DNA of 64,000 nt from Bacteroidota bacterium (GTDB lineage: Bacteria > Bacteroidota > Bacteroidia > UBA7662 > CANHCV01): positions 62,001 to 126,000 of the forward strand of contig CANMVY010000003.1 of assembly GCA_947501265.1 (NCBI GenBank), in the 5' to 3' direction. Of the stretch, positions 8,806 through 58,178 are shown piece by piece. A program made the position numbers and the translations under genes. Within the stretch, counting starts at the first letter, position 1; each line of letters opens with the position of its first letter. Below the pieces are notes generated by a model. It searched no databases. It was not told the origin of the DNA and saw only the letters and a program-made list of their open reading frames with translations.

Positions 8806-9246
8806 ATGAAAAAGTATTCAAATTTAAAATTCCATTTGGAGGAAGCTGGTATCCCTGTTGTTACCATGTCTTTTGCTGAAATGGGACAGGTATTAGGATT
8901 CCCATTGCCTTCATCCGCTGGAAAATTCAAAAATTGGTGGTCAAACACCCGCAGCGGACAATCTTCTGCTTGGCAGGAAGCCGGTTACAAAGCCGATGCA
9001 AAGTCGTTGATTTTTGATGAAAACGCAGAAGGTCGCAATTTCGATCAGTACCAAATTTCATTTGTTCGCCGTGGTCGTCCAATGTATGCAAACGTAAGTG
9101 AAAATTCTTCAAATGCTGGTAACGACTTGAAGAACATGCAACTGATTGCTGAAGCCATCTTAGGTTTCGATGAATTGTTGCAACTTGGTCACATCAGCAA
9201 AAAAGATTTCGAGAAAGTACGTGACCGTGCTTTGAGTTTCCTATAA
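8806..9246 (+). CDS. DUF7662-like domain protein of unknown function
   Basis: 146 residues with no signal peptide or membrane segment. Residues 20-65 (MSFAEMGQVLGFPLPSSAGK, then WWSN, then WQEAGYKADA) match the pattern of the DUF7662 domain, seen in proteins near defence or nuclease genes in other bacteria; its biochemical role is not known to me. The C-terminal helical part (KNMQLIAEAILGFDELLQLG) is unrecognised. It is a single transcription unit with its own terminator 27 bp downstream. Codon choice looks like well-expressed neighbours such as the OmpA gene. Confidence 0.65.
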   Translation: MKKYSNLKFHLEEAGIPVVTMSFAEMGQVLGFPLPSSAGKFKNWWSNTRSGQSSAWQEAGYKADAKSLIFDENAEGRNFDQYQISFVRRGRPMYANVSENSSNAGNDLKNMQLIAEAILGFDELLQLGHISKKDFEKVRDRALSFL

Positions 9247-9266: not shown

Positions 9267-9297
9267 AAAAAAAGGGGCTTTATTGCCCCTTTTTTTA
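9267..9297 (+). terminator. Rho-independent terminator of the DUF7662-like gene
   Basis: AGGGGC (9273-9278), loop TTTATT, GCCCCT (9285-9290), flanked by an A run and seven T residues. It can act on both strands and also lies beyond the end of the broken DUF6671 gene. Confidence 0.88.
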
Positions 9298-9320
9298 TTC
9301 GTGCAATAGAAAATCAGTAT

Positions 9321-10121
9321 TCATGGGTTACAAATTAAACAATACATGGGATCCTCTTTGGTTTTTCCATTTGGATTGCTTTTGATTTCTTCATGTTGGC
9401 AAACCTCACAAACATGAATGGAATAAAGGATGGAGGAGGTAGGGGAGTTGCACCACTGGCACGGAAGTCCTCGTTCTACTTTTTTTTGTGAGAAGCCAGG
9501 TTACTCGCACTTTGGACATTCCGTTTGAAGTTGGGTTAAGAAATTTGAGAAACCTATTCGAATATTCGCCATTCGGGTAGGATTGTTCATTGCTCTCATA
9601 TCGCTTTCAGCCATAACAGTATCTCCTAAAGTTCCATAAACTGAAAAAAGGGTTTTCCAATCAAAAATGTCCTTAAAAATTTCCAAGTCATTCCCGCTGT
9701 TTTTTTTGAGAATGATCCCATGGCTTGGGAATTTAATCCGGTTGCAAAACTCAACCAATTGTTGCTCGGAATGAATGGATTCAATCTGGAAATTGGTGTG
9801 TTGGGAAGTGTAATGATGATAGAATTTGGAGTTTGAGGAACGATCGAAAAGAATAAACGATTCTTGGTGTTGGGGCACCCACGGAAATAAAGGATGAGGT
9901 CCGAAACTTCCTTCCGTGGCGATAAACAAGGAATGCTTGGAACTAGAAAATCCTAATTTGCATTTTTCTTCCAAGGTGTCCATTACGGAAAGATTCCTAG
10001 GAATTTCACCGGAAAAAGTTCCAAGCGCATCGGTCTCTGCTTCAATAACTAAGGTTTTCGATGCGCCATTTTGGTGTAAAATGGGAAAAATAGCAAGCTC
10101 TTTCTGATGTTTAGAAACCAA
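9321..10121 (-). pseudogene. DUF6671 family gene interrupted by an in-frame TAA
   Basis: The first 206 codons run from TTG 10121 to a TAA at 9503-9501 and carry the family signature (DALGTFSGEIPR, ATEGSFGPHP, ESDMRAMNNPTRM, then ECPKC). In the same frame, directly after the TAA, the reading continues PGFSQKKVERGLPCQWCNSP, then CEVCQHEE and finally MYCLICNP before a TGA at 9321. In my recollection the family has one continuous CPxCxxPGF...GLPCxxC...CxxC...CNP zinc-binding tail, so the stop falls inside a conserved motif. The 5' end is also suspect: an in-frame TGA lies two codons upstream of the TTG and the usual first strand is missing. The function of the family is unknown. It is either a recent pseudogene, a sequencing error, or a truncated but expressed protein. 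Confidence 0.75.
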
Positions 10122-10189
10122 ATTTCAAGGCCCATTTAGCCAGTTTTTCTAGGTTGTGAACGGTTTCATTTTTGGCTGATTTTGGTCGC

Positions 10190-10238
10190 AAAAATGCCCA
10201 CTCCGTGAACCTGATTAAGGAAGCACAAAGTGGGCATT
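10190..10238 (-). terminator. Terminator of the isocitrate dehydrogenase gene
   Basis: On the minus strand AATGCCCACT (10238-10229) pairs with AGTGGGCATT (10202-10193) and is followed by a short T run. The 26-base loop holds a further small pairing (GTG/CAC). It lies 20 bp past the stop of the isocitrate dehydrogenase gene. Confidence 0.75.
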
Positions 10239-10257: not shown

Positions 10258-11694
10258 TTATTGACCCTGACCTAGAGAATACGCTCGAACACCGTTGAAA
10301 GAATACAAATTCTCGGTTTTTACCACATCAATTCCATGATTTTCTGCTTGATTCAATAAATCAATGATGTCTGACTTAGAAATTCCATTCCCTTCTGCGG
10401 GCTTGAAGCGGCAGCGCCAATGGTCCGTACAAAAGGTTTCTTTGAATCCATTCGGCCATACTTTAATTCCACGATTGGTAATCATGGATAAAGAGATGTT
10501 TGGGTGCTGGATATGTTTCATGATTTCTGCCAATTGGTTGGGATCGGTTCCGCTCCAATGGATGAACAAATCTACTCCTTCCAAATCTTTCTTTTGCGCA
10601 GGCTTGCGATGATAAGTTGGAAGAATCATTTTCTGGTCTTTGGAGTAAGTAACGCCTTTCAAGATCTGAGGTTTGTGTCCCAAATTGGCGATAACTGCTT
10701 CAGCAAATTCATGGGTTCCTACCTTTTCTTTGCTTACTCCATCTTTATAAATATCGTAGGTATGAACCCCATCTTCGATGGTTTTCAACCAAGCATTTTG
10801 AATTTTTTCAGCAACATCATTTTGGCCTAGGTGGCTCAACATCATGATGGCACCTTGCAATAAACCTGATGGGTTGGCCATGTTTTGACCTGCGCGTCGG
10901 GGTGCAGAACCGTGAATGGCTTCGAACATAGCGCACTCTTCACCGATATTAGCCGAACCTGCTAATCCAACCGACCCTGCAATTTGGGCAGCAACATCGG
11001 AAAGGACATCACCATAAAGGTTAGGCATGACAATGACGTCAAAAATCTCTGGGGTATCAGCCAATTTTGCAGCGCCGATATCGATAATCCAGTGTTCGTT
11101 TTCAATTTCTGGATATTCTTTGGCAATTTCATCGAAAACTTGGTGGAACAAACCATCGGTTTGTTTCATGATGTTGTCTTTGGTGAAACAAGTTACTTTT
11201 TTGCGGTTTTGAACACGGGCATATTCAAAAGCGTAACGAACAATTTTTTCGCAACCTGGACGGCTAATCAATTTCAAACATTGAATCACCTCGTCGGTTT
11301 GTTGGTGCTCAATCCCAGCGTACAAATCTTCTTCATTTTCACGAATGATTACCACATCCATGATGGGATGTTTGGTGCTCACAAAAGGGTGTAGGCTCAA
11401 GCAAGGACGAACATTGGAATACAACCCTAAAAATTTGCGGGTAGTAACGTTCAAGCTTTTATATCCACCACCTTGTGGAGTGGTGATAGGCGCTTTTAAA
11501 AAGATTTTGTTTTTTCGAATGATATCCCAAGATTCATCTGAAATACCCGAAGTATTGCCAGAAAGGTAAACTTTCTCTCCAACTTGAATTTCGTCTACTT
11601 CAATTTGAGCTCCAGCAGCTTTGAGAATGTTGAGGGTGGCATCCATAATTTCTGGACCAATTCCATCTCCTTTTGCAACGGTAATGCGTGTCAT
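10258..11694 (-). CDS. icd: Isocitrate dehydrogenase with C-terminal extension
   Basis: 478 residues. The N-terminal ~335 residues are a beta-decarboxylating dehydrogenase: GDGIGPEIM near residue 10, the substrate loop SNVRPC (about 93), IIRENEEDLYAGIEHQ (about 115), the metal-binding VMPNLYGDVLSDVAAQIAGS (about 230) and the coenzyme loop EAIHGSAPRRAGQNMANPS. The additional ~140 C-terminal residues resemble the extension of the Thermus-type enzyme, a form common in Bacteroidota. It oxidises isocitrate to 2-oxoglutarate in the citric acid cycle, probably with NADP+. It is divergent from the LysR regulator, 86 bp away, which may control it. A long hairpin terminates it. Confidence 0.93.
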   Translation of the reverse strand: MTRITVAKGDGIGPEIMDATLNILKAAGAQIEVDEIQVGEKVYLSGNTSGISDESWDIIRKNKIFLKAPITTPQGGGYKSLNVTTRKFLGLYSNVRPCLSLHPFVSTKHPIMDVVIIRENEEDLYAGIEHQQTDEVIQCLKLISRPGCEKIVRYAFEYARVQNRKKVTCFTKDNIMKQTDGLFHQVFDEIAKEYPEIENEHWIIDIGAAKLADTPEIFDVIVMPNLYGDVLSDVAAQIAGSVGLAGSANIGEECAMFEAIHGSAPRRAGQNMANPSGLLQGAIMMLSHLGQNDVAEKIQNAWLKTIEDGVHTYDIYKDGVSKEKVGTHEFAEAVIANLGHKPQILKGVTYSKDQKMILPTYHRKPAQKKDLEGVDLFIHWSGTDPNQLAEIMKHIQHPNISLSMITNRGIKVWPNGFKETFCTDHWRCRFKPAEGNGISKSDIIDLLNQAENHGIDVVKTENLYSFNGVRAYSLGQGQ

Positions 11695-11780: not shown

Positions 11781-12695
11781 ATGAAGTACACCCTTCATCA
11801 GCTTCAAATTTTCAAGTGTTTGGTTGAAACCGGGAGCATTACAAAAACGGCTCAAGTTTTGAATTTATCCCAGCCGGCTATTTCCATTCAGTTGAGGAAT
11901 TTACAAAATCAATTCGACTTGAATTTGTATGAAATATTGGGTAAACAAATTTTTATCACAGAATTTGGGCGAGAAATTGCGGCTTCAGCCGAAGAAATCA
12001 TTCGGCAAGTGGAAGCCATCAATTACATTTCGAGTCGGTATAAAGGGCAATTGGCTAGCAAGTTAAGGATTTCTGTAGTTTCAACCGGAAAGTACGTGAT
12101 TCCCTTCTTTTTAAAGGATTTTCTCGATCGTCATCCTTCGGTAGAATTGGTTTTGGACGTAACAAACAAAGCCAAAGTATTGGACTCTTTGGAATCGAAT
12201 GAGGCCGATTTTGCTTTGGTTTCACTGTTGCCCGCCAAACTAAAAGTGGAATCTATCCCGATTTTGAAGAACAAATTGGTGTTGGTGGCCAATGAAAACT
12301 TTGAACTCCCTTTGAATGGTCTCTTCCTGAATGATTTTTCAAAGTTGCCTGTTATTTTGAGAGAAAAAGGATCGGGAACCAGGGAGACCATGGAACGATT
12401 TTTCCAACGAAACGAAATTCAGCTGAAGAAACCGTTGGTGTTAACCTCCAATGAAGCAGTAAAGCAAGCAATATTAGCTAACCTTGGAATTTCCATCATG
12501 CCGATGATAGGAATAAAAAGTGAGTTAGAACAAAATTTGGTGAAAGTTATTCCTTGCAAAGGGTTGCCTATTGAAACCGAATGGAGTTTAATATGGATGA
12601 AAGGAAAGGCCTTGAATCCAACAGGATTGGCGTTCAAAGAATACTTAGAAGACGGCAAAGAGGCGATTATTCAAAAGCATTTTAGTTGGATGTGA
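11781..12695 (+). CDS. LysR family transcriptional regulator
   Basis: 304 residues. The N-terminal winged helix-turn-helix (LHQLQIFKCLVETGSITKTA and LNLSQPAISIQLRNLQNQ, residues 5-60) is followed by a linker helix and a periplasmic-binding-like effector domain (KLRISVVSTGKYVIPFFLKD onward). The FLKDF and TSNEAVKQAILANLGISIMP segments resemble the CbbR/CysB-type branch. It is divergent from isocitrate dehydrogenase, the usual layout for a LysR protein and its target, but the effector is not evident. The ATG at 11781 follows an AT-rich leader of about 25 bases. Confidence 0.92.
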   Translation: MKYTLHQLQIFKCLVETGSITKTAQVLNLSQPAISIQLRNLQNQFDLNLYEILGKQIFITEFGREIAASAEEIIRQVEAINYISSRYKGQLASKLRISVVSTGKYVIPFFLKDFLDRHPSVELVLDVTNKAKVLDSLESNEADFALVSLLPAKLKVESIPILKNKLVLVANENFELPLNGLFLNDFSKLPVILREKGSGTRETMERFFQRNEIQLKKPLVLTSNEAVKQAILANLGISIMPMIGIKSELEQNLVKVIPCKGLPIETEWSLIWMKGKALNPTGLAFKEYLEDGKEAIIQKHFSWM

Positions 12696-35800: not shown

Positions 35801-36448
35801 ATGGAAAGATTTAAATCATTGGATCCTCCTCACAAAGGACTCCGACATGCCTTGGGGCAGTTAACGCTTTTAACGGGAAAGACCAAATTCTCAGATCAAC
35901 AACAGGTTGAAAAACTTAAGAAATTAGCCGAAGAGGTTTTCTTCCTTTTAAAAGATCATACCAAAACGGAGAATGAATTTATTCTAAAACCCTTGGAAGA
36001 AAAAAATGCCTTAGCTGCGGAACCGTATTTTGAAGATCATACCGACATTGAGGAATGGGAAAATCACCTTTTTGAATCCATTAAAAATTTGGATGGAACG
36101 CAAACCGATGACCAAGGCCATTTGATCTATTTGAATTTGTGTGACTTTCAAAGTGCATACTTGGATCATATCGACGAAGAAGATGTTGAGTTGGAAGAAA
36201 AACTACAAAAGCATTTTTCTGATGAAGAATTGATCCAACATCAAATCAAAATCATGCAGCAGATGGAATTTTCAACCCTTTTGCTTTGGTTTAAGTACAT
36301 TGTGCCTGCCCGGAGAATTGAAGAAAATGCCCAGGTTTTACGAAACTTCAAGAGTAATGCTCCTGAAGAAGCATTTCAAGCGGTGATTCAAACCATTCAA
36401 GGAGAATTATCTCATGAAGAATTTGAAGCAATCATCAAATCGATTTAA
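35801..36448 (+). CDS. Hemerythrin-like HHE domain protein
   Basis: 215 residues. A hemerythrin-like four-helix bundle starts HKGLRHALGQLTLLTG, with further histidine and acidic ligands in FLLKDHTKTENEFILKPL (about 50-65), FEDHTDIEEWENHLF (about 75-90) and SAYLDHIDEEDVELEEKL (about 125-142). It probably binds a di-iron centre for oxygen or nitric oxide sensing or for scavenging. It lies four bases after selD. Its last five codons (IIKSI-stop) are part of the 65-bp repeat at the left edge of the restriction-modification cassette. Confidence 0.85.
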   Translation: MERFKSLDPPHKGLRHALGQLTLLTGKTKFSDQQQVEKLKKLAEEVFFLLKDHTKTENEFILKPLEEKNALAAEPYFEDHTDIEEWENHLFESIKNLDGTQTDDQGHLIYLNLCDFQSAYLDHIDEEDVELEEKLQKHFSDEELIQHQIKIMQQMEFSTLLLWFKYIVPARRIEENAQVLRNFKSNAPEEAFQAVIQTIQGELSHEEFEAIIKSI

Positions 36449-36495
36449 TGCATGAAAGTTATCATCACAGGAGTAACCGGAATGATTGGGGAAGG
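36431..36495 (+). repeat. 65-bp direct repeat, left copy, at the restriction-modification insertion
   Basis: Matches 38610-38674 at 61 of 65 positions with no gap. It carries the last codons and stop of the hemerythrin gene and the first 15 codons of the epimerase gene (MKVIITGVTGMIGEG), which then hit a TAA at 36497. The match stops abruptly on both sides. Confidence 0.93.
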
Positions 36496-36499
36496 ATAA
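36452..36499 (+). pseudogene. Truncated 5' end of the epimerase gene (15 codons)
   Basis: ATG 36452 opens the same reading as the intact gene at 38631 (MKVIITGVTGMIGEG) and stops at TAA 36497-36499, formed where cassette sequence begins. It may be translated from upstream transcripts but makes no functional fold. Confidence 0.85.
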
Positions 36500-36540
36500 A
36501 ACCACAATAAATTTGTAAATTTGATAAAAAGTAAGAAGGA
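36486..36540 (+). promoter_or_regulatory. Promoter and ribosome binding site of the restriction-modification cassette
   Basis: -33 TTG (36486-36488), 19-bp spacer, -7 TAAATTTG (36508-36515), immediately followed by a second TAAATTTG (36516-36523). The -33 lies inside the duplicated host DNA and the -7 in the cassette. A purine-rich AAGAAGGA (36533-36540) precedes the methyltransferase ATG by seven bases, an unusually good Shine-Dalgarno for this chromosome. Confidence 0.6.
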
Positions 36541-36547
36541 AAATTAA

Positions 36548-37822
36548 ATGAGAGAAAAATACAAAATAGCAAGTCTTTTTTCCGGTTGTGGCGGTCTCGA
36601 TCTAGGTTTCATTAAAGCCGGTTTTGAAGTCATATGGGCTAATGATTTTTTTAAAGAGGCTGTTGAAACTTACAAATTAAACATAGGCGATCATATTGTT
36701 TATGGTGACATAACAAAAATTAATAGTTCGGAGATTCCAAACGATTTCGATATTCTTTTGGGCGGATTCCCGTGCCAAGGCTTTTCTGTTGCGAATGTAA
36801 AACGTAGTATGGAAGATGAGCGTAATTTCTTGTACAAAGAACTACTGCGTCTGATAAAAGATAAGCAACCTAAATTTTTTGTTGGTGAGAATGTAAAAGG
36901 ACTTCTCTCGATGCAACAAGGTAAGGTTATTAAAATGATTATTGAAGACTTCAAATCATTAGGTTATAATGTTGAGTACAGATTACTAAAAGCATCTGAT
37001 TATGGAGTTCCTCAAAACAGAGAAAGAGTTGTAATTATAGGCAATCGTCTAGGATTAAAAAACCCTTTTCCAGAAAAGTCTCATGGCCTGGTGAATGACC
37101 TTTTTAATAATTCACTAAAACCTTATGTTTCAGTAAAAGATGTTGTTGGCCATTTGGCAAATATTAGAACAAGAGATAAATCATTTGAACTAGAAAATAA
37201 AATCATTTATAATCATCTTGCTAGAACAAATGTTGCCGATAAATTTTGGGGAAGGAAACACAAAGTAAATCAACATGATATTTGTGATTATCTAAAATAT
37301 TGGAGAGATAGAAGCGGTTGGTCTACTAAAAAAGTAGATGAACACTTTGGATATGCCCATACAGCAGGTCATTGGTTCAGAAAAGATAACAATTCAGGTA
37401 GTATTCCTAATCCTAAGGATTGGTGGGAATTGAAAAAGATACTAGGATTTGATGATAAATATGATAAAGCGGTAACCGAGTTAGAATTAAAAGAAATAAA
37501 ATTTGAGCAATCCTTAAGAATAAACAATTGGGAATTACCAAGTGACACTATTACCGCCACAGGGCCTGAAATTCACCCAAATAGAGAGCGAAGAATGTCG
37601 GTAAGAGAATGTGCTATTATTCAAACTTTTCCTGATGATTTTATTTTCACGGGCAGTCTAGGAAATATGCACAAACAAATCGGAAATGCAGTACCCGTTT
37701 TACTAGCTCAAAAAATTGCAGAAGTGATTAAAATTGAATTGGATGAATATGAAAAATCTAACAAAAAAACAAGTGGAACAACTCAAGCAGATCGAAAAAC
37801 TAGAGCAAAAGTATTTGAATAA
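36548..37822 (+). CDS. DNA (cytosine-5-)-methyltransferase
   Basis: 424 residues, a C5 cytosine methyltransferase. Motif I FSGCGGLDLGF (11-21), motif IV GGFPCQGFS with catalytic Cys76, motif VI GENVKGLL (113-120), motif VIII QNRERVVIIG (156-165) and motifs IX-X near 350-400 (IQTFPDDF, QIGNAVPVLLAQKIA). Between about 195 and 340 lies a long target-recognition region that includes a helix-turn-helix-like stretch (WRDRSGWSTKKVDEHFGYAH then GHWFRK). It methylates cytosine in an unknown site and protects the genome from the adjacent nuclease. The gene ends about 80 bases inside the nuclease gene. Confidence 0.95.
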   Translation: MREKYKIASLFSGCGGLDLGFIKAGFEVIWANDFFKEAVETYKLNIGDHIVYGDITKINSSEIPNDFDILLGGFPCQGFSVANVKRSMEDERNFLYKELLRLIKDKQPKFFVGENVKGLLSMQQGKVIKMIIEDFKSLGYNVEYRLLKASDYGVPQNRERVVIIGNRLGLKNPFPEKSHGLVNDLFNNSLKPYVSVKDVVGHLANIRTRDKSFELENKIIYNHLARTNVADKFWGRKHKVNQHDICDYLKYWRDRSGWSTKKVDEHFGYAHTAGHWFRKDNNSGSIPNPKDWWELKKILGFDDKYDKAVTELELKEIKFEQSLRINNWELPSDTITATGPEIHPNRERRMSVRECAIIQTFPDDFIFTGSLGNMHKQIGNAVPVLLAQKIAEVIKIELDEYEKSNKKTSGTTQADRKTRAKVFE

Positions 37823-38570
37823 GTATTTTTACTTTTTAAAGTTTGCTGAAGATGAGTTGCTTCACGGTTTCAAAACAAAATATAGAATAAAAAAAGATTG
37901 GTATTCTAAATGGAATCCAAATGAAGAAGGCAAAGGAATTTCAGATTTTGCAACAGGTGCAGAAAGAATCGTTTATTCTTTGCTAAACGGAAAGGGCATT
38001 GGACAACCAAATTCAGCCCCTATTGGCGCAGATTTATTTTTTGAAGTTGATGATGCTTTTATTCATATTGACCTCAAAACTGTTCAAACCAGAAATATTG
38101 GAGACTATACTAGTGACATATTCGTTGGTAATAACCAAAATAGTTACAATGGAACTCTAGATGTAAGTGGTATAGAAAAAACATATGATGAGGCATGTTT
38201 GCCAACTTTCTACACACTACCAGATAAAACTAAAAAGATATGCTTGACATATTTTATTACGATTTTATACGAGGAAATCAATTTGGACATTCTAACAATT
38301 TCAATTATTTCAATGCCGAATGGGGCATTATTTCCTATATATGGAAAAAGGGTACTTAAAGCAGGTAAAGTTTTATATCCTGTTGGCAATCCAAAAAGGG
38401 ACACTCATGCAAAATCTGTCAGATTCAAATGGAAAGAAGTGTCTGAATTTGAACTTCTCGAGAGTAACAATAAAAGAATCAAGATCGCTTACTTTAACAA
38501 TAGCATGAACGATGAATTTAAGGAGAAGCTTACATACTTTGACGAGCTTAATAAGATTCAAAATTCTTAA
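37743..38570 (+). CDS. Probable type II restriction endonuclease (PD-(D/E)XK fold)
   Basis: 275 residues. After a helical N-terminus (MNMKNLTKKQVEQLKQIEKL) comes APIGADLFFEVDDAFIHIDLKTVQ (about 92-114), in which Asp97 and the D110-L-K112 pair fit the PD-(D/E)XK nuclease core, with Glu74 as a possible extra acidic residue. The position after the methyltransferase, with an overlap of about 80 bases, is typical of a restriction partner. The specificity family is not recognised. ATG at 37743 is preferred; 37749 is also possible. The gene is AT-rich like the methyltransferase. Confidence 0.75.
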   Translation: MNMKNLTKKQVEQLKQIEKLEQKYLNKYFYFLKFAEDELLHGFKTKYRIKKDWYSKWNPNEEGKGISDFATGAERIVYSLLNGKGIGQPNSAPIGADLFFEVDDAFIHIDLKTVQTRNIGDYTSDIFVGNNQNSYNGTLDVSGIEKTYDEACLPTFYTLPDKTKKICLTYFITILYEEINLDILTISIISMPNGALFPIYGKRVLKAGKVLYPVGNPKRDTHAKSVRFKWKEVSEFELLESNNKRIKIAYFNNSMNDEFKEKLTYFDELNKIQNS

Positions 38571-55821: not shown

Positions 55822-56907
55822 TTGTTTAAAATCCTCGATCGATATATCCTTCAGAAATTCATTGGAACGTTTGTGTTTCTGATGTTTCTATTGATTTTGG
55901 TTTTTTTGATTTTCGATCTTTCTGAAAACATCGATAAGTTCCTTTCGAGGAATGCTCCCACCAACGAAATTGTTTTTAGTTATTATTTGAATTCCATCCC
56001 TTTTTATTTGTCGATGGTTTTTCCGCTGTTTGTATTTCTTTCGGTGATTTTCTTTACCTCGAAAATGGCCAATCGGAGTGAAATCATTCCCATTTTGGGC
56101 AGTGGGGTTAGTTTGTGGAGATTGGCTCGTCCGTATTTGATTGGTTCTGCCGCAATTGCTGCATTTTTCTTTGTCATGATTGGTTACGTTTTACCTCCTG
56201 CCAACAAGGAACGGATGGATTTTATGTCGAAGTACGTTCGCGATGGAGTTTATTTAACCGGGCGGAATTCGCACTTGCAAATTGCGAAAGGCAAGTACAT
56301 CTATTTTGAGAGTTTTCAGTATCCCGATTCGGCTGGATTTTTGTTTTCTTACGAAGAAATTTCGAAGGGAAGATTAAAGCGTAAATTTTTTGCCGACCGG
56401 TTGCAATGGGATTCAAAAAAGCAGTCATGGAAGGCCGATCAGTATTATTGGCGGATTTATTTGCCGAACCGAAAGGAGCGGATAGAGCGTGGGACGACCA
56501 CGTGGATTAAGTTACCATTTCATCCCAACGATATCGGCAAAAGTTTTGAAGGGGAAGATATTTCGACCTTAACCACGCCCGATTTGAAGAAGTACATTGC
56601 CTTGGAAGAATTGAGGGGTAGGGAAGTGGCGCATTTGAATTTTGAGGTTTGGAAGCGTTTAACGGCGCCGGCCACAACGTTGGTGTTAACCTTGATTGGT
56701 TTGGCACTTTCGGCCCGGAAGAAGCGGGGAGGAATTGGTTTAAATTTGGCAGTTGGAATTGGGTTGTGTTTTTCTTACATCTTGTTGGATCGGTTTTCAG
56801 CAATTTTTGCGGCGAACAACGATTTGCCCGTGGTGGTTGCAGCGTGGATTCCCACGGTGGTTTTTGGATTGATTGCTTTAATTTTGATTCGTTTTGCACC
56901 TAAATAA
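55822..56907 (+). CDS. LptF/LptG-family lipopolysaccharide export permease
   Basis: 361 residues. Three N-terminal membrane helices (FVFLMFLLILVFLIF, LSMVFPLFVFLSVIFF, LIGSAAIAAFFFVMIGYVL), a long periplasmic beta-jellyroll-like segment (residues ~110-275) and three C-terminal helices (TTLVLTLIGLALSA...LNLAVGIGLCFSYILL, VVVAAWIPTVVFGLIAL). This is the YjgP/YjgQ layout of the ABC transporter that moves lipopolysaccharide. Only one of the two paralogues is here. TTG at 55822 directly after the tgt stop is the likely start because upstream in-frame codons overlap tgt. Confidence 0.9.
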   Translation: MFKILDRYILQKFIGTFVFLMFLLILVFLIFDLSENIDKFLSRNAPTNEIVFSYYLNSIPFYLSMVFPLFVFLSVIFFTSKMANRSEIIPILGSGVSLWRLARPYLIGSAAIAAFFFVMIGYVLPPANKERMDFMSKYVRDGVYLTGRNSHLQIAKGKYIYFESFQYPDSAGFLFSYEEISKGRLKRKFFADRLQWDSKKQSWKADQYYWRIYLPNRKERIERGTTTWIKLPFHPNDIGKSFEGEDISTLTTPDLKKYIALEELRGREVAHLNFEVWKRLTAPATTLVLTLIGLALSARKKRGGIGLNLAVGIGLCFSYILLDRFSAIFAANNDLPVVVAAWIPTVVFGLIALILIRFAPK

Positions 56908-57796
56908 AATTCAGAGTCAGCTTTCCTTGCACGGGATTGTCTTCATTTGGGGATTTACCGCCATTTTAGGGAAATTGATTGATTTACCGTCGGAGCAGTT
57001 GGTTTGGTGGAGAATGGGATTAGCTTGGATTGGGTTGTGGGTTATTGGGAAGTTTTTGCATGCCCACTTGGTAAATCCGAAGAATCGATGGAAGGTTTGG
57101 GGAGTGGGCGCTTTGGTGGCCCTGCATTGGCTTTGTTTTTTCGAGGCGGCAAAAGTGTCGAACGTTACGGTTTCGTTATTGGGATTGAGCTCTTCGGCCT
57201 TTTTTACGGCTTTGTTAGAACCCTTCCTGTTGAAAAGGTCCATCGACAAGAAAGAGGTTCTTTTGGGGTTGATTACCGTTATAGGAATTTTGCTAGCATT
57301 TCCATTTGATCGGGCCGGGAATTTGGGATTGGGGTTGTTGTATTCCTTTGCAGCTTCGGTATTTGGAACGTTATTCAGCACCATCAATGGACTGTTGAAG
57401 CAAGAAGAATCGGCTGCGGCCATTGCCAAACACGAGTTTTTAGGCGGATTTTTAGTATTGACCATTTTTCTCATCTTTCTTGATCCTTCTATGCAATTTG
57501 TTTCCATTCCGTCGTGGGGGAACATGAAATATTTGTTGATTTTGAGCTGGATTTGCACCAGTTTCGCCTTTTTAGCCAGTGTTTATTTGTTGAAGTACAT
57601 CACTCCTTTTACGGTGAATTTAACGGTGAACTTGGAGCCGGTTTACGGCATTTTGATGGCCTTGTTTTTCTTCAACGAACATGCCATGATCACACCGTTG
57701 TTTTATTTGGGAGCCGTGATCGTATTGATTTCGGTGATGCTGAATGCCTGGTTCAAAAGGAAAGGAAAAGTGGTTGAAGAAGAAGTAGAGATCTAG
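56894..57796 (+). CDS. EamA/DMT-family transporter
   Basis: 300 residues, ten hydrophobic helices in two EamA repeats (HGIVFIWGFTAILGKLIDLP to LLAFPFDRAGN; LGLGLLYSFAASVFGTLFST to VIVLISVMLNAWF). A RMGLAWIGLW and a EPFLLKRSIDKKE segment are typical of each repeat. Substrate unknown. The start is TTG 56894, inside the end of the LptF/G gene; no ATG fits before residue 40. A poorly defined Glu/Lys-rich tail ends it. Confidence 0.85.
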   Translation: MHLNKIQSQLSLHGIVFIWGFTAILGKLIDLPSEQLVWWRMGLAWIGLWVIGKFLHAHLVNPKNRWKVWGVGALVALHWLCFFEAAKVSNVTVSLLGLSSSAFFTALLEPFLLKRSIDKKEVLLGLITVIGILLAFPFDRAGNLGLGLLYSFAASVFGTLFSTINGLLKQEESAAAIAKHEFLGGFLVLTIFLIFLDPSMQFVSIPSWGNMKYLLILSWICTSFAFLASVYLLKYITPFTVNLTVNLEPVYGILMALFFFNEHAMITPLFYLGAVIVLISVMLNAWFKRKGKVVEEEVEI

Positions 57797-58178
57797 GAAT
57801 TAATCTTCTTGAAATCAGGTTTATTCGAAACAGGTACCACTGGAATTTTATAAGGCTTAACATGAATGGATCATTATTCATCGTGAACCTCAAATAACAT
57901 AGAAAGTAAACTTTTTCAGGATGGGGTAAATTCACATCGAATTTCCATGATTCGTGTTTGGATAAACTTAGGTAATTCCCCAACCTTTTCGGGGATTTCG
58001 GAAAAAAAAACGGGCTTCCTTTTTTTTAAATCTGAAAGGTGGAAGCGTAAAAAAGGATAATATTCGAGTAAATGGGGTTGCTCTTGTCGCAAACGGGGGC
58101 TACCCTTCGCTCTTAGAAAAACTCCGGGACTACGTCTCACCCCTCCCCAGAAGTAAAGTTAATGCGTAATTTTTCGCT

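Follow-up and report, generated by a model that had tools for sequence, protein, structure and literature searches.

A DUF6671 gene with three in-frame stops beside a deleted sbtA: a probable recent loss in a Bacteroidota bacterium

Introduction

When a gene is cut by a stop codon and its frame stays conserved past that stop, is the gene dead, does it make a shortened product, is the stop an error of the assembly, or is it read through? The question is raised by the single DUF6671 gene in the genome of a Bacteroidota bacterium, which lies within a contig stretch of 64,000 nucleotides, here called the window. Three readings had been put forward in a preliminary description of this locus: a recent change, a sequencing error, or a suppressed stop. 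Our comparison with intact relatives favours recent inactivation, and adds two things which that description did not contain, a deleted transporter gene and a neighbourhood concerned with inorganic-carbon uptake.

Results

Three stops in a conserved frame

The DUF6671 frame (9321-10169, minus strand) runs from an ATG at 10169-10167, which matches the start of an intact relative's gene, to a TGA at 9323-9321, and it contains three in-frame stops. One of these, a TAA at 9503-9501 (minus strand) that was read directly from the sequence, interrupts the frame within the first zinc ribbon. The surviving open frame before it (10121-9501, minus strand) encodes 206 amino acids ending in ...ECPKCE and covers most of a predicted ITPase-like domain, with its first strand cut. 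Beyond the TAA stand 59 in-frame sense codons (9324-9500, minus strand; PGF...GLPCQWC...CEVC...CLICNP), the remainder of two zinc ribbons, followed by the final TGA. Both halves match PF20376 (DUF6671), the part before the stop over profile positions 1-157 (E 4.6e-34, 118.5 bits) and the tail over positions 159-217 (E 4.4e-17, 63 bits), while the frame read through with X matches positions 1-217 (E 1.9e-58, 198.2 bits); all three score above the family cut-off of 23.8 bits. The in-frame TAA in the zinc tail and the conserved GLPCxxC, CxxC and CNP motifs past it, both reported in the preliminary description, are therefore borne out.

In an alignment of relatives the eight invariant cysteines of the tail fall into two groups of four, which would be expected to bind zinc, and all eight are present in the window. 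The TAA comes after two of the four cysteines of the first ribbon and so splits that group. On sequence evidence the conservation of the tail past the stop is far beyond chance. Read through, the window's frame has lost none of the 34 residues invariant among 43 aligned relatives, and where a column is at least 90% conserved (62 columns) it never departs from a family residue that the closest intact copy keeps.

The 5' end had also been described as apparently damaged, with a weak TTG start, and it proved to carry the other two stops when set against the relative's 282-residue gene, a TAG at 10151-10149 and a TGA at 10127-10125 (both minus strand). The sole possible start left is the TTG at 10121, four codons before a conserved histidine, with five open codons in all before that residue. 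Each of the 43 aligned relatives has at least 14 open codons ahead of the histidine and a candidate start at least 11 codons ahead of it, and a start at the TTG would cut the first strand of the ITPase-like domain in the predicted structure of the relative. A single open frame through domain and zinc tail, absent from the window, is found at all 47 of the relatives' loci.

An intact copy and a deleted sbtA in the same genus

A search of 40 genomes returned seven with DUF6671, including the window's own (G000). One of them, the same-genus G002 (MAG contig CANHCV010000001.1, locus L010), has an intact gene of 282 amino acids that is 79% identical to the window copy. Their alignment is free of gaps in the coding part, and the interior stops of the window are one TGA, one TAG and one TAA.

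DUF6671 is followed in G002 by a 322-residue Sbt_1 gene, sbtA, for a Na+/bicarbonate transporter (PF05982, E 3.6e-112), the start of which overlaps its stop. BLAST aligned both flanks of this locus with the window, and 947 bp (L010 4866-5812, nearly all of sbtA) were absent. The joint lies at 9296-9301, with left homology up to 9302 and right homology from 9295. Only the first seven codons of sbtA (MNTDFLL) are left, within a remnant reading MNTDFLLHE before a stop (9295-9324, minus strand); as in the relative, its ATG overlaps the stop of DUF6671. Apart from this start, no SbtA or DabA gene adjoins DUF6671 in the window, and no Sbt_1 gene was found in the window's genome (rated 99.99% complete); G001 and G002 have one each.

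A GC-rich hairpin with a T run (9267-9296, read from the sequence) is retained from behind the relative's sbtA, and an intact DUF7662 gene (8806-9246, plus strand), the downstream neighbour, marks the far side of the deletion. Upstream, an inverted repeat with a T run (10190-10237, minus strand, read from the sequence), also present in the relative and a probable terminator, separates DUF6671 from an intact isocitrate dehydrogenase gene (10258-11694, minus strand), beyond which lies an intact gene for a LysR-type regulator (11781-12695, plus strand), a family recurrent at DUF6671 loci. A scan with a sigma-70 promoter model, which does not cover Bacteroidota promoters, gave no match.

In G001, sbtA was observed in the same place, beside DUF7662 and M20 genes; this contig ends inside sbtA, just before the expected position of DUF6671, and no DUF6671 match was found in G001. 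Eight distant loci (L012, L013, L015, L017, L045, L049, L050, L056) show LysR, isocitrate dehydrogenase, DUF6671 and sbtA in that order, with genes in between at some of them. Since G002 and G001 have sbtA at this position and the distant loci keep the gene order, the state of the window is derived.

Background of broken genes in the syntenic stretch

We compared the 56 ORFs of at least 100 amino acids in about 60 kb of G002 with the window's genome. Forty-nine were intact, one (sbtA) had no match and six contained stops. These six comprised two over-extended starts, in which the stop precedes a plausible ATG, three short frames that we judged spurious (two, 70-74% identical, have no methionine; the third, of 150 amino acids, is 91% identical), and DUF6671, which alone among the real genes of the stretch has interior stops. 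Compared the other way, 51 of the 56 ORFs in the window's genome had an intact match in the relative, three were unmatched and two contained a stop close to an over-extended start. As an account of the stops, general pseudogene noise or error was rejected, the cases outside DUF6671 being over-long starts or frames judged spurious. The 56 ORFs of the window's genome in this stretch end in TAA (38), TGA (17) or TAG (1), so that TAA, the commonest, is an ordinary terminator here.

Two other regions of the window stood out. At 35801-37819 lie a hemerythrin-like gene, which scores below the family cut-off, and a gene for a C-5 cytosine DNA methylase (PF00145, 5.4e-88), both missing from the syntenic stretch of the relative. 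They overlap the block of lowest GC in the window (0.339 at 36001-38000) and are likely a lineage-specific insertion. Strand asymmetry was largest at 56001-58000 on both measures (GC skew 0.219, AT skew -0.193).

Age of the break and traces of selection

Judged by these alignments the break is young. The dN/dS of the window's DUF6671 against G002 was 0.19, compared with 0.041 for isocitrate dehydrogenase, 0.083 for DUF7662, 0.031 for M20 and 0.034 for LysR. Pairs of intact DUF6671 genes gave 0.048-0.187 (n=11; L014-L026 had no value, its synonymous sites being saturated), so that the window's value is hardly higher. In neutral simulations, three stops with no conserved column hit arose in 0.4-1.1% of cases, and in a further simulation in at most 0.25% at any substitution number tried, while a single stop was unremarkable (16-20%). 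The rarity of three stops in an otherwise unharmed frame is a real strain on a pseudogene model.

Divergence was higher at the 5' end, where 7 of 15 residues differed, versus 51 of 266 (p 0.018). The strain would ease if the two 5' stops lay in a leader that is untranslated in the genus, as they may; against this stand the open codons ahead of the histidine in all 43 aligned relatives and the strand that a TTG start would cut. Divergence of the tail was not above that of the rest of the gene (Fisher p 0.40).

Neighbourhoods of intact DUF6671 genes

The 47 DUF6671 loci came from one scan of genome contigs with the relative's own protein as query, so near kin are favoured, and 43 were aligned (L021, L022, L043 and L056 were left out). 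None has an internal stop. The preliminary description had asked for relatives whose protein ends at the position of the TAA, and there were none: all 47 extend past it. Elsewhere we observed a diverged paralogue of DUF6671 that stops short of the zinc ribbons (L009, G034:C3:67679-68140, minus strand); its genome carries two full-length copies as well.

Within neighbourhoods reaching to 4 kb, or to the contig end where that is nearer, sbtA was present at 21 of the 47 loci. Another ten had dabB-dabA directly upstream on the same strand (DabA confirmed by Pfam in all ten, DabB checked in one representative), and no locus had both sbtA and dabA, giving 31 of 47 with one or the other. LysR (21 loci), Sua5 (20) and isocitrate dehydrogenase (19) were other recurrent neighbours. 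Sixteen loci had neither sbtA nor dabA nearby, seven of them with Sua5 and nine with none of the three. The Sua5-type threonylcarbamoyl-AMP synthase, an enzyme that uses bicarbonate, is encoded near DUF6671 at its 20 loci (e.g. L015 4820-5776). Small proteins of about 80-100 amino acids without a Pfam match also recur (L013 3667-3954, L016 3695-3943), one cluster at 20 loci and another at six.

An even draw from the phylum, a fairer sample than the single scan, contained DUF6671 in 12 of 395 genomes, the window's included. Seven of the 11 others were linked to a transporter gene, with sbtA within 2.5 kb in G034, G105, G179, G376 and G240 and, in G298 and G416, dabA no further off than 0.4 kb; neither was linked in G121, G152, G183 and G286, and the DUF6671 matches in G152, G240 and G286 were partial. 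The five further positive genomes from the 40-genome search showed linkage only in G002 and not in G004, G005, G016 and G033. By simple arithmetic, a single gene would be expected within 4 kb in a genome of about 3.5 Mb at a chance of roughly 0.25%.

Predicted fold

The AF2 model of the relative's DUF6671 had a mean pLDDT of 93.6. VIA-align placed the ITPase-like group on top over about residues 12-216, with VC0702 (Z 11.7, rmsd 2.8, 114 aligned) and TM0159 (Z 11.7, rmsd 4.0, 140 aligned) best, and HcgB, RdgB, human ITPA, YjjX and Maf among further matches. We take HcgB, YjjX and VC0702 to form one superfamily with HAM1 and Maf. A Foldseek search of the PDB returned nothing at E of 0.001 or below; its best match stood at 3.1e-3, and CinA, Maf and HAM1 proteins ranked high. 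From the model, the relative's intact protein is predicted to have an ITPase-like fold ahead of two zinc ribbons.

Sequence profiles spoke neither for nor against this kinship. Profile-profile comparison gave probabilities of 4.8% for YjjX and 0.7% for HAM1, and the positive control, YjjX against HAM1, failed as well, at 1.0%. NCBIfam and PADLOC searches returned no meaningful match, and a PDB sequence search only weak ones (best E 0.0056).

Discussion

We think it likely that the window holds a recently inactivated DUF6671 gene, the left-over half of a two-gene operon for inorganic-carbon uptake (DUF6671-sbtA) that its lineage is losing. This rests on the contrast between three in-frame stops and an intact, syntenic, same-genus copy in a gap-free coding alignment, on the missing 947 bp of sbtA in a genome with no Sbt_1, on the lack of internal stops in any of the 47 relatives, on DUF6671 being the only real gene so broken in about 60 kb, and on a stop that splits the first zinc ribbon. 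The gene order shared by the eight distant loci also speaks for it. Among the readings offered at the outset, a recent change thus fits best, because the nearest relative is intact and the adjoining transporter gene is deleted in the window. Counting against it are the 34 invariant residues and 62 conserved columns left unharmed and a dN/dS near that of intact pairs.

The same unharmed residues would suit a shortened but working protein, running from the TTG at 10121 to the TAA and consisting of the ITPase-like domain without the zinc tail, in which case the two 5' stops would sit in a more variable leader; the tail-less, diverged paralogue L009 offers a parallel in another genome. We consider this unlikely. 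The TAA interrupts the first zinc ribbon between the second and third of its four cysteines, the tail that would have been abandoned has not diverged beyond the rest of the gene (Fisher p 0.40), and the TTG both cuts the first strand and lies closer to the conserved histidine than the candidate start of any of the 43 aligned relatives.

That the stops stem from an error of sequencing, binning or assembly is quite improbable. The assembly is in 26 contigs and the frame is otherwise well conserved, but a single gene would need three separate substitution errors, and it adjoins a clean deletion whose flanks are homologous, in a stretch where no other real gene contains an interior stop. Suppression or recoding of the stop to give a full-length protein was unsupported and hardly credible: the conserved frame past the stop, its one attraction, is expected if the break is recent, while the stop is shared by none of the 47 relatives, G002 is intact, TAA terminates 38 of 56 ORFs here, and stops of two other kinds (TAG and TGA) come earlier in the same frame.

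Under recent inactivation, the lineage would have lost bicarbonate uptake by SbtA, DUF6671 would no longer have been needed and would have decayed, although either event may have been first, and full-length DUF6671 protein would not be made in this lineage. In intact genomes DUF6671 would act as a partner of SbtA or DabAB, perhaps one that responds to nucleotides. Its neighbourhoods suggest that it probably supports inorganic-carbon uptake there; a nucleotide-linked role is a guess by analogy. One could go further and propose that DUF6671, with its ITPase fold and double zinc ribbon, is a dedicated and hitherto undescribed partner of inorganic-carbon uptake in mostly heterotrophic Bacteroidota, a functional counterpart of SbtB that senses or hydrolyses a nucleotide, adjusts SbtA or DabAB and decays once the transporter is lost. 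We put this forward tentatively, as a possibility that may well turn out otherwise.

The pseudogene itself is ordinary. Less ordinary is what it brings to light: a family of unknown function often found beside SbtA or DabAB, which are unrelated systems for inorganic-carbon uptake, and a lineage in which transporter and family member went together. We found no open-licence PubMed Central paper that names DUF6671 or links it to carbon uptake, and its neighbourhood yields a testable hypothesis on bicarbonate handling by heterotrophic bacteria. A search for DabA and for alpha- and beta-carbonic anhydrases found no match in G000, G001 or G002, and SbtA may stand in for these in the genus. With Sbt_1 missing as well, the carbon dioxide economy of the window's species is worth a look.

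Compared with known systems, the window copy agrees with PF20376 in both halves and at 34 of 34 invariant residues, and differs by three stops where 47 of 47 relatives are open. The ITPase-like superfamily (HAM1/RdgB, YjjX, Maf, HcgB) has the fold seen in the model of the intact relative over residues 12-216; a double zinc ribbon is the addition in DUF6671, and sequence profiles do not connect the two. DabAB (MpsAB) is encoded by the dabB-dabA pair upstream of DUF6671 at 10 of 47 loci, while G000, G001 and G002 are without DabA. In Staphylococcus aureus, a carbonic anhydrase and the MpsAB transporter are reported to be interchangeable (PMC6689103). Another comparison is with the cyanobacterial sbtA-sbtB operon, where SbtB is a PII-like regulator with apyrase activity and a C-terminal redox loop, encoded beside sbtA (PMC10117731). 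DUF6671 differs from it in being predicted as ITPase-like with zinc ribbons, and regulation of SbtA by DUF6671 is hypothetical, but in intact relatives, too, sbtA stands beside the gene of a small soluble protein, and the handling of adenine nucleotides by SbtB (PMC10117731) has its likeness in the ITPase-like fold of the DUF6671 model.
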